The translations under genes and the position numbers were made by a program. A stretch of 56,093 nt of DNA, taken from an uncultured SAR86 cluster bacterium. GTDB lineage: Bacteria; Pseudomonadota; Gammaproteobacteria; Magnimaribacterales; D2472. Below the pieces are notes generated by a model. That model saw only the letters and a program-made list of their open reading frames with translations, had not been told where the DNA came from and ran no database searches. Each line of letters opens with the position of its first letter. Positions within the stretch are counted from its first letter, which is position 1. Below, one piece after another: positions 50,918 to 56,093 of the stretch. The stretch is from the NCBI GenBank assembly GCA_902593675.1, contig CACJJI010000007.1, positions 1-56,093 of the forward strand, in the 5' to 3' direction.

Positions 50918-52027
50918 TTAGATATAATTCTCGGCAAAGCTCTTATTGTATGGCACTATGCTACTTTCTTTCCCATCTTTAACTTTGTTGGCCCAATTAG
51001 GGTCTGATAGAAGAATTCTGCCTAAGGCAATCAAATCAAATTCATTATTATTTAATTTTTCATATAAAGTGCTGATATCTGCTGTCTGAGTCTCATGATC
51101 TCCCCCAAAAGTTTTTGTAAAATCTTTATTCAAACCAACACTACCTACGCTTATCGTGGGAAGACCAGTTATTTTTTTTGCAAAACCCGCAAGGTTAATT
51201 GATTCATCAGAAAATTCATTTTCCCAATATCTTCTGTTACTACAATGCAAAAAATCAGCGCCAGCATCTTTTAGGATATTAAAAAAATTTGCTAGGCTTT
51301 TTTTTGAAGAAGCAATTTTTGCATCGTAATTTTGTTGTTTCCATTGAGAAACTCTAATTCCAACTTTAAATGAATCAGAGGTGATTTGTTTTGAGTTGGA
51401 AATTATTTCAGATGCAAATCTAGCTCTATTTTCAAGAGACCCCCCATAATTATCTTTCCTTAGATTTATTTGCTCCCAGAAAAATTGATCAATTAAGTAT
51501 CCATGCGCGCCATGAATTTCCACTCCATCAAATCCAAGCTCCTGACAAATTTTTGCATCATTAGCATATATGTGGATTAATTTTTGAATATCTTCTAGCG
51601 TCATCTCATAGGCAACTTTTTTTCCACCTTCTTTTACTAATCCTGATGGAGTAAAGCCAGGAATTTTGGGATCAGGCGGCATACCTAATTTTCTTACTCC
51701 ACCGCAATGCCAAAGTTGACAAAAAATTGATGAATGATTTTTATGAACCTCATTTATAATTTTTTCCCACATTTTTTTTGATTCATCTGATTGTAAGTTT
51801 GGACAATTCGGATATGCGCTTGATGCTTCATGACTTATTTCTACTCCCTCTGTGATAATAAGCCCAACTCCTCCAGCAGCTCGCTTAGAATAGTATGTAG
51901 GAGCATAATCATTTGGTACGCCATTAGGGGAGAATTCTCTGGTCATTGGAGCCATTACAACTCTATTTCTTAGGTTTAAACCATTCATGTTGTACTCAGA
52001 AAAAAGAATGTTTTTTTGATCATTCAT
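50918..52027 (-). CDS. NADH:flavin oxidoreductase (old yellow enzyme family)
   Basis: A 369-aa FMN TIM-barrel enoate reductase type protein. Markers are LRNRVVMAPMTREFS near the N-terminus, YYSKRAAGGVGLIITEG, QLWHCGGV with the flavin-contacting residues, GFDGVEIHGAHGYLIDQF and NLRKDNYGGSLENR, and ALGRILLSDPNW at the end. The substrate is unknown; such enzymes reduce activated C=C bonds of electrophiles or 2,4-dienoyl compounds. It converges with serA with a 4-bp gap, and no terminator is visible. Confidence 0.92.
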   Translation of the reverse strand: MNDQKNILFSEYNMNGLNLRNRVVMAPMTREFSPNGVPNDYAPTYYSKRAAGGVGLIITEGVEISHEASSAYPNCPNLQSDESKKMWEKIINEVHKNHSSIFCQLWHCGGVRKLGMPPDPKIPGFTPSGLVKEGGKKVAYEMTLEDIQKLIHIYANDAKICQELGFDGVEIHGAHGYLIDQFFWEQINLRKDNYGGSLENRARFASEIISNSKQITSDSFKVGIRVSQWKQQNYDAKIASSKKSLANFFNILKDAGADFLHCSNRRYWENEFSDESINLAGFAKKITGLPTISVGSVGLNKDFTKTFGGDHETQTADISTLYEKLNNNEFDLIALGRILLSDPNWANKVKDGKESSIVPYNKSFAENYI

Positions 52028-52333: not shown

Positions 52334-53008
52334 TTGAATATTTTAAACTTTCCCGAAACATGGCTAGAGCCACTCGGCAAAGGATTTTGTTTAGATTTTT
52401 TAGATAATATTGAGTCAAAATTTTTAAAAATCAGTACTCCTGATAAAATTATATTTCCTCCAACTTCTAAGATATTTCGTGCGCTAGAAATGGTCAACTT
52501 TAATGACGCTAAAGTATTAATTTTAGGTCAAGATCCTTATCATGGTTTAGAGCAAGCAAACGGTCTGTCTTTTTCAGTTAACAAAGAAAAAATAATTCCA
52601 CCTTCTTTAAAAAATATTTTTCTTGAATTAAAAAATGATTTAAATGTTCCGATTTCTCCACACGGCGATTTGACTTCCTGGGCCCAACAAAAAATCTTGT
52701 TATTGAATTCTGTTCTAACAGTTGAACAAGGAAAACCAAATTCACACAAAGAACTAGGCTGGGATAAATTAACGGATAGAATTATTTCTAAGCTAAGCCA
52801 AAGAGGGAATATGATTTTTGTTTTATGGGGCAATGTGGCACAAAGCAAATATCATTTAGTGGATATAGAAAAAAATACCATTTTATCTGCTCCTCATCCA
52901 TCTCCTCTTTCTGCGTACAGGGGATTTTTTGGATGTAAGCATTTTTCAGAAATTAATAAAACCTTGAAAGAGAATGGTTCTAGTGAAATAAATTGGAAGC
53001 TTGATTAA
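52334..53008 (+). CDS. ung: Uracil-DNA glycosylase
   Basis: Removes uracil from DNA in base-excision repair, 224 aa, family 1. The catalytic motif is LILGQDPYHG with Asp67, and the DNA-binding motif is APHPSPLSAYRGFFGC with the catalytic His. It starts with TTG at 52334 preceded by AAGGGC (52322-52327); no ATG lies in a better place. The C-terminus is a few residues from the converging ygfZ gene. Confidence 0.97.
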   Translation: MNILNFPETWLEPLGKGFCLDFLDNIESKFLKISTPDKIIFPPTSKIFRALEMVNFNDAKVLILGQDPYHGLEQANGLSFSVNKEKIIPPSLKNIFLELKNDLNVPISPHGDLTSWAQQKILLLNSVLTVEQGKPNSHKELGWDKLTDRIISKLSQRGNMIFVLWGNVAQSKYHLVDIEKNTILSAPHPSPLSAYRGFFGCKHFSEINKTLKENGSSEINWKLD

Positions 53009-53013
53009 TTTTT

Positions 53014-53757
53014 TTAAGAAAAGCTGTCTTTTTTTCCTAAGCAAGATGAAAAAATTTTGTCTTTATCTTTAAAGCTTTGACCAATAATTATAAATTTAGA
53101 AACTTCTTTTTCATGAGAGTGAACAATCAATCTCGTTTCTTTTTTCAATTTACCTAGATATTCCATTCTTGCAATTATTTCTTGCCCTTTAAAACAACCC
53201 TTGCTAAAACTAACCCTGGTGTCGTGTTGCCCCAGCTCATGAGGTCTATATTTGCCAGTTTCTTTAAGTTGAATTTGATGATCGCCCATAATTTTTCGGT
53301 TTATACACCAATGATCAATGCTGAGATCACCACCACCATTCAGATAATCATTATCTACATCAATTAATAAGGATAGGGTCGCGATATCCGAGCTTAAAAT
53401 TAGATGTTCATTTGGAAGCATTGCTTGATCTTTCTTTTTTACAAAACCTATAACTTTATAGCTAAGGAGCTCAGCAGAGACTCTATAAAATGGTAAATAT
53501 TTAGTTATTTCATCTAAAAAGACATCTTTTTGATCTTCTTCAATGATAATAAGCCACTTGTTTTGGTTAAAGACAATTTCAAAATTGCATAAAATAAACC
53601 CTTTTTCATTGCACAAAGATGAGGTTTGCCCTAATTGCTGAGTGATAAGAGTGCAATCTGAGGTTACCTGTCCTTGTAAAAGATTCAAGACAGAGTCAAA
53701 ATCACCCTTTAAATGAATTACTGTAATATCCTTGAGATTTACAGTTCCATACTTCAT
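53014..53757 (-). CDS. ygfZ: YgfZ-like folate-binding Fe-S cluster protein
   Basis: Tetrahydrofolate-dependent factor for maturation of some Fe-S proteins (GcvT-like fold). The diagnostic motif KGCFKGQEIIARMEYLGKLKK (K-x-C-x-G-Q-E) is present near residue 190, and LLQGQVTSDC near the start matches the family N-terminus. At ~247 aa it is shorter than E. coli YgfZ (326). I prefer ATG at 53757, which gives MKYGTVNL; a TTG at 53775 would add six residues, and neither has a clear SD. It is divergent from sdhE, as in E. coli. Confidence 0.88.
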   Translation of the reverse strand: MKYGTVNLKDITVIHLKGDFDSVLNLLQGQVTSDCTLITQQLGQTSSLCNEKGFILCNFEIVFNQNKWLIIIEEDQKDVFLDEITKYLPFYRVSAELLSYKVIGFVKKKDQAMLPNEHLILSSDIATLSLLIDVDNDYLNGGGDLSIDHWCINRKIMGDHQIQLKETGKYRPHELGQHDTRVSFSKGCFKGQEIIARMEYLGKLKKETRLIVHSHEKEVSKFIIIGQSFKDKDKIFSSCLGKKDSFS

Positions 53758-53822
53758 AAATTCAGAATTTAACAATTTATTTAAATAAAAATTTCAATGA
53801 AGTTATTATATCAGCCTAGAAA

Positions 53823-54071
53823 ATGAATACAGACATCAATAAAACTAAATGGAAGTGCAGAAGAGGTCTGAGAGAGCTGGACCTATTGTTTAGAAGATAC
53901 AGCGAGGATAAACTAGATTCTCTTTCTCAAGAGGACTTTGATATGTTTAACAGCATCTTAGATCTTGAAGATCAACCTTTATATGATTTTATATTTAAAA
54001 ATGAATCTTTAAATAGCCCTGAAAAAGAGCGCTTTATTTTAAATAATTTAAAAAACTTCATAGTTAAGTGA
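53823..54071 (+). CDS. sdhE: Succinate dehydrogenase assembly factor SdhE
   Basis: An 82-aa protein needed for covalent FAD attachment to SdhA. It carries the signature RRGLRELDLLF (residues 13-23, RGxxE) and a conserved acidic helix region LSQEDFDMFNSILDLEDQPLYDF. The neighbour ygfZ supports the call. Its ATG is 65 bp from the ygfZ start, and the stop is 42 bp before rpoE. Confidence 0.95.
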   Translation: MNTDINKTKWKCRRGLRELDLLFRRYSEDKLDSLSQEDFDMFNSILDLEDQPLYDFIFKNESLNSPEKERFILNNLKNFIVK

Positions 54072-54113: not shown

Positions 54114-54683
54114 ATGGGGATTAGTAAAGGGGATGAAGTGTTTGTAAATGAAATGAAAGCCGGAAACAAAATGGCTTTTGAAGCCATGGTTTTAAAATAC
54201 CAACCAAAGCTTATGTCTTCCTTGGTCGGATATACAAAGTCTCGAGATCAAGCTGAGGAGTTATGCCAAAAAACATTTTTAAGAGTTTGGCAAAAAATTG
54301 ATTCCTTTAGAGGAGATAGCGCGCTTTTTACATGGATTTATAGAATAGGAATAAATCTGGCAAAAAATGACTTTGCTAGTAGTTTTGCTAAAACCTCAAA
54401 AATGACTGATTCTTTAGATCAGGGGGAGCACGACGTTCCACAGCACCTCTCACCCGAAACCGAGCTTATAGCAATGGAGTCAGAAAATAGGATCATGGAC
54501 TTCATTCAAACCCTTGATACAGATACCAAGACAGCTTTTACGTTAAGGGAGATTGAAGGAAGAACCTACGATGAGATAGCTCAAATACTTAAATGTCCAA
54601 TTGGAACAGTGAGATCAAGAATATTTAGAGCTAGACAATTAATAGTAGAATTTATGAATAAGGAGAATATGTTAAATGGATAA
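54114..54683 (+). CDS. rpoE: ECF RNA polymerase sigma-E factor (RpoE/AlgU)
   Basis: Envelope-stress sigma factor, 189 aa. Region 2 includes FEAMVLKYQPKLMSSL and AEELCQKTFLRVWQKI with TWIYRIGINLAKN; region 4 includes REIEGRTYDEIAQILKCPIGTVRSRIFRARQ. SD AGGAA is 5 bp from ATG. It overlaps the anti-sigma gene by 8 bp. The classical order rpoE-rseA-rseB-mucD is kept except that rseB is missing. Confidence 0.97.
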   Translation: MGISKGDEVFVNEMKAGNKMAFEAMVLKYQPKLMSSLVGYTKSRDQAEELCQKTFLRVWQKIDSFRGDSALFTWIYRIGINLAKNDFASSFAKTSKMTDSLDQGEHDVPQHLSPETELIAMESENRIMDFIQTLDTDTKTAFTLREIEGRTYDEIAQILKCPIGTVRSRIFRARQLIVEFMNKENMLNG

Positions 54684-55368
54684 AGACTTAGAAAATCTAT
54701 CTGCTTTATATGATGGCGAGCTTTCGTCCAAAGAAACACAAGAGGTTCTTGCGAAGATCAATGCAGATGGGGGCTTGAGAAATACCTTTCAAAAATTTGG
54801 AATTATCTCAGATATAGTTCAAAGGCATTCAGCACAAAAAACTTCAAAAGTTTTACTTCTAAAAGATTATCTGAGCAAAATTAATCCCGTGATGAGCAAT
54901 TTGGTTACAGCTGCAGCAACTGTCCTGATCACATTAATAATTTTGTATCAGTTTGATGATGATCGTTTCCAGGTTGACAGAGATAGTTCTTTGCAGCTTT
55001 CATCAGCACTTTCAAGCGATCAAGCAAAAAATCAATTATTAAATACAGATCAAAATATCATGGAGCACATGATTCATATTATGCAATCTAATCAGTCTCA
55101 TAATTCTCAACAGGTTTCTAAAAACTGGATCCCAGTAGGCTTTTCTGTCAATCCAAATAACCCTAACCAATATTCAAATGGAAGAAATAATTTATTTTTT
55201 CATCTTGAAAATAAACAACTTGGTATTAAAAAGGTAAAATACTTTAAAGCAAATAATAATTGGATTTATTTAATTCCGTTGCAAGATGGAAGACTGTTAA
55301 CTGCATATGGAGATGTGCCTCCATCTATGGCTGACCCCATGATCCAATCAATATATCAAAGGAATTAA
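54676..55368 (+). CDS. rseA: RseA-like anti-sigma-E factor with RseB-like C-terminal segment
   Basis: A 230-aa single-pass membrane protein. Residues 1-60 match the RseA/MucA sigma-binding domain (LENLSALYDGELSSKE, then FGIISDIVQRH). One membrane helix spans ~73-93. The periplasmic part has a Gln/Ser-rich linker (~100-148), then 149-228 with WIPVGF, SNGRNNLFF and a final YGDVPP..AD..IQSI. That ending resembles the end of RseB/MucB (WxPxGF ... SDGL ... GExPPxTAxxIAxSI). Known RseA/MucA proteins lack this, so I infer a fusion or a captured remnant of rseB. The start overlaps rpoE. Confidence 0.82.
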   Translation: MDKDLENLSALYDGELSSKETQEVLAKINADGGLRNTFQKFGIISDIVQRHSAQKTSKVLLLKDYLSKINPVMSNLVTAAATVLITLIILYQFDDDRFQVDRDSSLQLSSALSSDQAKNQLLNTDQNIMEHMIHIMQSNQSHNSQQVSKNWIPVGFSVNPNNPNQYSNGRNNLFFHLENKQLGIKKVKYFKANNNWIYLIPLQDGRLLTAYGDVPPSMADPMIQSIYQRN

Positions 55369-55369
55369 A

Positions 55370-56093
55370 ATGAATCTTTTCAAAAACAAGATTGCTCTTT
55401 TGCTCGCTCTAGGATTTGCGTCTTCTATCAATGCGGCATTGCCTTCTAATATTTCAGAACTAGTTGAAACTTCTGCGCCTGCTGTTGTAAATATAACTTC
55501 TCGTAAAGAAGTAAAAATGCAGAACTCGCTGAGGGGGTTCGATGAATTTGAGAGATTTTTCGGCATTCCTCGTGGTAGAGGCTTTCCTCAACCTCAACAG
55601 CCTGAAACAAGAGAAGCTGTAGCATATGGCTCTGGTTTCATTTTTAAAGATGGTTATTTATTAACAAATTTCCATGTTGTTGATGAGGCTGAAGAAATCA
55701 CAGTTTCTTTAAATGATAGAAGAGAGTTTTCTGCCGAGGTGGTTGGAATTGATCCTCTTTCAGATCTAGCTGTTTTAAAGATTAAGGGTAAAAATTTGCC
55801 AAAAGTCTCTATTGGCGACAGCGAAAACCTAAAGGTTGGAGATTGGGTTGTTGCAATAGGCTCTCCCTTTTCCTTTGATTTTTCTGTCACCGCAGGAATT
55901 GTAAGTGCAAAAGGAAGAAGCATTCAAAATCAAAATATTGGAAATTATGTCCCATTTATTCAGACCGATGTTGCAATTAATCCAGGTAACTCTGGGGGGC
56001 CATTATTTGATTTGGATGGAAAGGTTGTAGGAATTAATTCTCAAATCTATTCTCGAAGCGGAGGCTATCAAGGCCTTGCTTTTGCAATACCTA
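55370..56093 (+). CDS. degQ: DegQ/MucD-type periplasmic serine protease, 5' part
   Basis: HtrA-family protease/chaperone, cut by the right window edge after ~241 codons. It has a signal peptide MNLFKNKIALLLALG...INA (cleavage near residue 22). The catalytic triad is visible: His in LLTNFHVVDE, Asp in PLSDLAVLKI, and Ser in INPGNSGGPLFD. The PDZ domains lie outside. ATG at 55370 follows the anti-sigma stop by 1 bp with AAGGA upstream. In the sigma-E pathway it degrades misfolded outer-membrane proteins. Confidence 0.95.
   Translation, partial: MNLFKNKIALLLALGFASSINAALPSNISELVETSAPAVVNITSRKEVKMQNSLRGFDEFERFFGIPRGRGFPQPQQPETREAVAYGSGFIFKDGYLLTNFHVVDEAEEITVSLNDRREFSAEVVGIDPLSDLAVLKIKGKNLPKVSIGDSENLKVGDWVVAIGSPFSFDFSVTAGIVSAKGRSIQNQNIGNYVPFIQTDVAINPGNSGGPLFDLDGKVVGINSQIYSRSGGYQGLAFAIP

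Follow-up and report, generated by a model that had tools for sequence, protein, structure and literature searches.

Members of the SAR86 order are abundant in the sea. In a SAR86 cluster bacterium (Gammaproteobacteria according to NCBI), we examined a gene in which RseA is most likely genuinely fused to the C-terminal domain of RseB; this architecture occurs across the SAR86 order and has parallels elsewhere in the class. The window, namely the whole stretch of DNA analysed, comprises 56,093 nt of contig CACJJI010000007.1 (assembly GCA_902593675.1), and the genome from which it comes is 81% complete. The fused anti-sigma factor is encoded by an ORF of 230 aa at 54676..55368 on the + strand, and relatives with 57-92% identity to the protein belonged to SAR86 in 19/19 loci.

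The ORF overlaps by 8 bases with the gene for an rpoE-type ECF sigma factor of 189 aa (54114..54683, +). Sigma70_r2 and r4_2 were observed above the cut-off in this sigma factor, and its top NCBIfam match was TIGR02939 (RpoE) with 156.6 bits, which is below the cut-off of 236. On the other side, a gene for a mucD/DegP-type serine protease (55370..56093, +; Trypsin_2, 1.3e-35) is cut at the window end; the top NCBIfam match of the partial protein was TIGR02037 with 301.6 bits, below its cut-off. Upstream of the sigma factor gene lies a conserved neighbour, sdhE, for an FAD assembly factor (53823..54071, +; Sdh5, 2.3e-16), and a SdhE homologue was present upstream in 22/26 loci read from the order. 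Judged by resemblance, the ORFs at 50918-52027 (-), 52334-53008 (+), and 53014-53775 (-) presumably encode a flavin-oxidoreductase-like, a uracil-DNA-glycosylase-like, and a YgfZ-like protein, respectively.

The 230-aa protein contains an RseA_N sigma-binding domain (residues 6-54; 54691..54837, +), which matched PF03872 with 26.2 bits against a cut-off of 24. This is followed by a single transmembrane helix (residues 72-90; 54889..54945, +) with a Kyte-Doolittle maximum of 2.22 in a 19-residue window, and the same helix was present in the full-length structural model, at low confidence. About 140 residues of the protein are periplasmic. They consist of a linker (residues 94-148; 54955..55119, +), delimited by alignment of the linkers of families f1 and f4, and of a domain resembling the C-terminal domain of RseB/MucB (residues 149-230; 55120..55365, +), which has six strands and a final helix and was assigned from profile, fold, and constraint. 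Here f1 is the window's own family, and f1 to f4 are labels from the genome search. The first-pass annotation had described one 230-aa gene between rpoE and mucD, a sigma-binding domain with one membrane helix, and three RseB-like motifs. All of these were confirmed, the motifs being WIPVGF (residues 151-156), YSNG (166-169), and GDVPPSMADPMIQSI (212-226). The protein shares with RseA/MucA the RseA_N domain, the single membrane helix, and the position of its gene right after rpoE.

The likeness of the periplasmic end to the end of RseB, which had been read from the window protein itself, was borne out for the family but not for the window domain alone. Residues 145-230 alone gave no match in Pfam or NCBIfam, and when the window's own genome was searched with PF17188, no candidate to score was returned. 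Against a single RseB HMM, the best stretch of the window protein reached 3.4 bits, which lies within what shuffled sequences gave (6,600 shuffles, maximum 4.6); L051, the highest-scoring SAR86 protein with this HMM, reached 12.1 bits. The resemblance is therefore below detection by single-sequence searches. When the window domain was compared singly with one RseB or with two other fusions (described below), its score was reached by 28-108/500 shuffles.

For the comparison of families, the sets consisted of 50 f1, 12 f4, and 4 f3 proteins and of 50 true RseB proteins from 50 loci, for 27 of which the canonical RseA was recovered. The hhalign alignment of f1 C-terminal domains with RseB C-terminal domains had a probability of 88.6% (E 2.7e-6, score 36.6), that of f1 and f4 together 89.4% (score 37.1), and that of f4 alone 33.5% (score 25.4). 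With 200 column shuffles for each comparison, the highest scores were 18.7, 19.7, and 18.3, respectively. A second alignment set gave a probability of 89.0%, and no match of the SAR86 C-terminal domains to the RseB N-terminal domain was obtained by hhalign. Four of the 12 f4 proteins (L053-L056) had been chosen by a pattern (G[FY], later F.I, late GD) made of letters of the tested resemblance; the f1 set, which was chosen by phmmer alone, gave the same hhalign result. The f2, f3, and canonical RseA proteins had been chosen by patterns in the N-terminal part. As judged from these profiles, the family-level likeness to RseB C-terminal domains is more than chance.

When the SAR86 domain profile was searched against all PDB sequences, E. 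coli RseB ranked first and second (E 0.09). In the reverse search with this profile in 274 class genomes, 12/66 weak matches outside the order fell on the RseB C-terminal domain. PF17188 matched 27 of the 203 order genomes at E<=1, none above the cut-off. Ten of the 27 matches, assigned by position or ORF, were located at the C-terminus of an orthologue (G195, G105, G200, G198, G182, G185, G189, G057, G192, and G188), and the other 17 sit in other frames. Furthermore, the NCBIfam RseB model touched the domain in 3/4 SAR86 proteins scanned (L121, L126, and L138; not L027), with E values of 5.8e-4, 9.2e-4, and 0.08, all far below the cut-off.

The C-terminal domain of RseB/MucB was matched by predicted fold as well as by profile. 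The full-length AlphaFold model was poor (pLDDT 55.9). The C-terminal domain modelled alone by AF2 had a pLDDT of 87.4 and a pTM of 0.76 and showed six strands and the last helix. In Foldseek searches of 350,542 PDB chains, RseB/MucB occupied ranks 1-13 when the full-length model was used as the query and ranks 1-14 when the domain was used, which upheld the proposed likeness. The 14 matches of the domain had E values of 5e-4 to 3e-2 and TM scores of 0.49-0.64 by query length, and the next, unrelated chain had an E value of 8e-2. According to the available part of one report, the MucB C-terminal domain consists of two sheets, one six-stranded and one two-stranded, and a helix (PMC7400510).

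Among 19 relatives, the median dN was 0.036 in the C-terminal domain, 0.108 in the linker, and 0.25 in the cytoplasmic (sigma-binding) part, and the median dS was 0.59, 1.14, and 0.98, respectively. The C-terminal domain had the lowest dN among the four segments of the protein. Since it is the most constrained part, it is no remnant, the term under which the first-pass annotation had introduced it.

An orthologue of the window protein was detected in 111/203 order genomes at E<=0.01, and no match in 92/203; RseA_N was detected in 123/203 at E<=0.1, in 100 of them above the cut-off. In all 26 order loci read (26 genomes; 3 f1, 6 f2, 10 f3, and 7 f4), a single ORF of 226-247 aa stands between rpoE and mucD. 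A recent or local event was rejected, because the architecture was found across the order. The f3 periplasmic region aligned with that of f1/f4, linker included, with a probability of 94.5% (0/100 shuffles), and that of f2 with that of f3 with 69% (0/100 shuffles). When f2 and f3 were compared directly with RseB, 90/100 and 77/100 shuffles, respectively, did as well. Because of this lack of a direct match, we infer an RseB-type domain in f2 and f3 only through their kinship to f1 and f4.

The first-pass annotation had also stated that there was no separate rseB and that the N-terminal domain of RseB was absent, and both statements were supported. No rseB was found in the locus, and neither RseB domain exceeded its Pfam cut-off in the order: PF03888, the N-terminal domain, was above it in 0/203 order genomes, the same search giving 4/14 control genomes, and PF17188 in 0/203 order genomes versus 176/274 class genomes. 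Weak PF03888 matches were observed in 12/203 order genomes, 10 of them of family f3. One such match, L077 (1078-1866), was rejected as RseB; it is a LolA_like outer-membrane lipoprotein-sorting protein (1.1e-60). The ORF 1351-2139 of L079, likewise a weak PF03888 match, resembles the L077 protein. As a separate observation, an ORF of 306-312 aa stood just upstream of rpoE in 9/10 f3 loci read (L205, L206, L207, L208, L209, L213, L142, L144, and L145; not L143), after sdhE wherever sdhE was found, and was absent from the f1, f2, and f4 loci read. By its initial motif, this ORF presumably begins like a glucokinase.

Among the 177 class genomes in which PF17188 matched at E<=0.01, similar fusions were found in 2, one of them clear. 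The matches listed among these genomes had frames of at least 318 aa; the 27 of the 177 that were not listed were searched again, two of them having frames of <300 aa, and the count of 2/177 applies to such short frames among frames of up to 575 aa. In G433 (L270/L273), a single 248-aa ORF between rpoE and rseC matched RseA_N with 64.8 bits and MucB_RseB_C with 2.3e-6 (28.1 bits for the protein sequence, short of the cut-off of 30.1, and 31.2 bits in the genome search). The gene after rseC in G433 reads like DegP. In G318, which belongs to the same family but another genus and is the only other genome of this order among those searched, rpoE, rseA, rseB, and genes named by reading as rseC-like and DegP-like are separate ORFs. 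The G433 residues to about 113 aligned with G318 RseA (0/500 shuffles) and residues 164-239 with the end of G318 RseB (BLAST E 3e-5; 0/500 shuffles), and the G433 linker showed no resemblance to the RseA tail (497/500 shuffles). In G298 (L271/L274), a 241-aa ORF lies between rpoE and rseC; both domains are weaker (2.2e-3 and 0.01, both below the cut-off), and the score of this fusion against G318 RseB was reached by 28/500 shuffles. The NCBIfam RseB model touched the G298 protein (L271), far below the cut-off, and did not touch the G433 protein (L270).

In both fusions, as in SAR86, a single ORF following rpoE carries the two domains in the same order. They are followed by rseC, whereas rseC is absent from that place in the 26 SAR86-order loci read. 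As a canonical control, Catenovulum adriaticum has rpoE, an RseA family protein, a protein with the MucB/RseB C-terminal domain, and RseC. The G433 and G298 fusions belong to other orders and are probably independent events; their occurrence suggests that rseA and rseB can merge into a single gene on more than one occasion.

In the accessible text on the MucA-MucB complex, helix alpha-I of MucA docks on the MucB C-terminal domain, called a universal determinant, and the lipid-A pocket of MucB lies in its N-terminal domain (PMC7400510). RseB is described as a possible site at which the sigma-E pathway senses lipopolysaccharide as a signal additional to unfolded outer-membrane proteins, the mechanism being treated as an open question in the parts available (PMC8103513; PMC7400510). 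RseB/MucB is a separate soluble protein with the N-terminal lipid-A-binding domain, whereas the SAR86 protein has neither feature. A one-protein lipopolysaccharide sensor, as suggested at first, is therefore not indicated, because the pocket described for MucB lies in the domain that is absent here; the RseA docking helix was likewise undetectable.

Indeed, canonical RseA/MucA proteins carry a docking tail, RLNxYLVNHxEY...GMLPYxRIVGY in varying forms (27 canonical sequences), whereas this tail was undetected in SAR86, where a folded RseB-type domain stands instead. When the SAR86 linker was compared with the canonical tails for the RseB-docking helix alpha-I, the probability was <1%, and 11/200 and 9/200 shuffles reached the score. 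The possibility that the linker is the RseA alpha-I helix joined in cis to the RseB domain was rejected on these grounds, and a low-stringency full-length alignment that put the linker on alpha-I was not counted as evidence. The f1/f4 linker alignment showed a segment L..AL.S.QA...L in the window protein (~54997-55038, +). The corresponding juxtamembrane segment of relatives, I..AI.S.EA...L, is common to the three SAR86 families f1, f3, and f4, and nothing comparable was detected in the tails of canonical RseA.

RseP was above the cut-off in the window's own genome and in 22/25 genus genomes, the own one included. The own genome also encodes a DegS-like protein of 334 aa, which has a hydrophobic stretch at the N-terminus, a trypsin domain, and a PDZ match of 24.6 bits (below the cut-off of 27); the DegS equivalog cut-off was passed in none of the genus genomes searched, this protein included. 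In the available part of one paper, the PDZ domains of RseP are described as size-exclusion filters (PMC10024687). Because the docking half of RseB is kept covalently, the lipid half is absent, RseP and DegS-like genes are present, and RseP has such filters, we propose that the product of this gene, which is probably an in-place rseA-rseB deletion fusion, serves as a built-in protease gate on site-1 cleavage or as a bulk excluding RseP.

In the mechanism that we infer, the cytoplasmic RseA_N domain would hold RpoE, the helix would span the membrane, and the periplasmic end would be the C-terminal domain of RseB/MucB, with which RseB normally docks on RseA. The deletion would have removed the N-terminal half of RseB, which has the lipid-A pocket, and the tail of RseA on which RseB docks; with the C-terminal domain attached covalently, neither would be needed any longer. 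The linker (residues 94-148) is a candidate site-1 cleavage region. Most likely, the domain would be folded on or next to this linker and limit site-1 cleavage by a DegS/AlgW-like protease, and/or its bulk may prevent RseP from acting before site 1 has been cleaved. The fusion would be expected to be cleaved by DegS/AlgW and then by RseP, and homologues of both are encoded in the genome. The main trigger may be unfolded outer-membrane proteins, through their action on the DegS-like protease, without a separate lipopolysaccharide signal.

Other explanations were also considered. If the protein were an ordinary RseA with a variable C-terminal tail that looks like RseB by chance, the lack of a single-sequence match for the window protein's domain and the length of 230 aa, which is like that of an ordinary RseA, would be expected. 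However, the hhalign score was 36.6 against 18.7 for the best of 200 shuffles, RseB/MucB occupied the first ranks of the PDB fold search, and canonical RseA tails showed no detectable similarity to the SAR86 linker; such a coincidence is very improbable. It is possible, although we would not expect it, that the domain is derived from RseB but is a mere steric plug, a bulk against RseP until the DegS-like cut with no shielding of site 1. The size-exclusion filters reported for RseP (available part of PMC10024687), the occurrence of RseP in 22/25 genus genomes, and the undetectable docking helix in the SAR86 linker would all fit a plug, whereas the domain is conserved far beyond the needs of a plug. 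Its high conservation points to a specific surface.

A further explanation concerns DUF4367, a domain that occurs in anti-sigma factors of Gram-positive bacteria. The periplasmic domain may be of the DUF4367 type, kept or gained, its RseB likeness then reflecting a common old superfamily and not descent. Profile A2 comprised 37 of the 62 f1 and f4 proteins, hand-picked for diversity. DUF4367 matched 23/37 SAR86 domains at E<=1 (best 2.9e-5) and MucB_RseB_C 13/37 (best 3.3e-5), and 2/10 relatives scanned singly passed the DUF4367 cut-off of 22.1 bits (L121, 23.3; L126, 22.2). The window domain had no DUF4367 match in the Pfam search. Both f4 members scanned singly, however, preferred MucB_RseB_C (6.3e-4 and 1.9e-3) over DUF4367 (0.059 and 0.089), the NCBIfam RseB model touched L121 and L126 too, and the operon position is that of rseA-rseB. 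The G433 protein, which has the same architecture, matched the RseB domain at 2.3e-6 but did not match DUF4367 at E<=1. The profile and fold matches to RseB also argue against a DUF4367-type domain, although the fold part does not discriminate between the two. We consider this origin unlikely. A tblastn search with a SAR86 member in plasmids for DUF4367 sequences gave one irrelevant match; two Firmicutes sigma-factor neighbourhoods contained a DUF4030 protein and a 'sigma factor regulator N-terminal' protein and no DUF4367; and the literature search found no paper naming DUF4367.

Several SAR86 members score at or near the DUF4367 cut-off, whereas true RseB C-terminal domains do not match DUF4367 (0/20 at E<=10). 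Since some family members score at least as high against DUF4367, the exact placement of the family within a wider superfamily is tentative, and a shared superfamily or a DUF4367 origin of the SAR86 domain is possible. L121 and L126 pass the DUF4367 cut-off and orthologues of theirs prefer MucB_RseB_C, which suggests that the two Pfam families are related. Speculatively, the SAR86 domain might be a bridge between the RseB C-terminal domain and DUF4367, so that the docking half of RseB and the outer domains of further anti-sigma factors would form one old family of periplasmic gate domains, in which lineages would switch between a built-in gate, fused and without a lipid sensor, and a detachable gate, RseB with its lipid-sensing domain; SAR86 and two other lineages would now have the built-in form.

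In our literature search, which mostly did not extend to subscription journals, no title or abstract opening among the matches listed concerned an RseA-RseB fusion, and no paper mentioned both SAR86 and rpoE. In the part available of a classification of class I anti-sigma factors, RseB and MucB each appear a single time, in the reference list (PMC7406223). The G433 and G318 pair offers the fused and separate states inside one family. SAR86, which carries only the half of RseB that grips RseA, joined to RseA itself, would represent a natural experiment on the separate roles of the two RseB halves. The fusion predicts a one-signal pathway, in which the gate may be tested without the lipid sensor.
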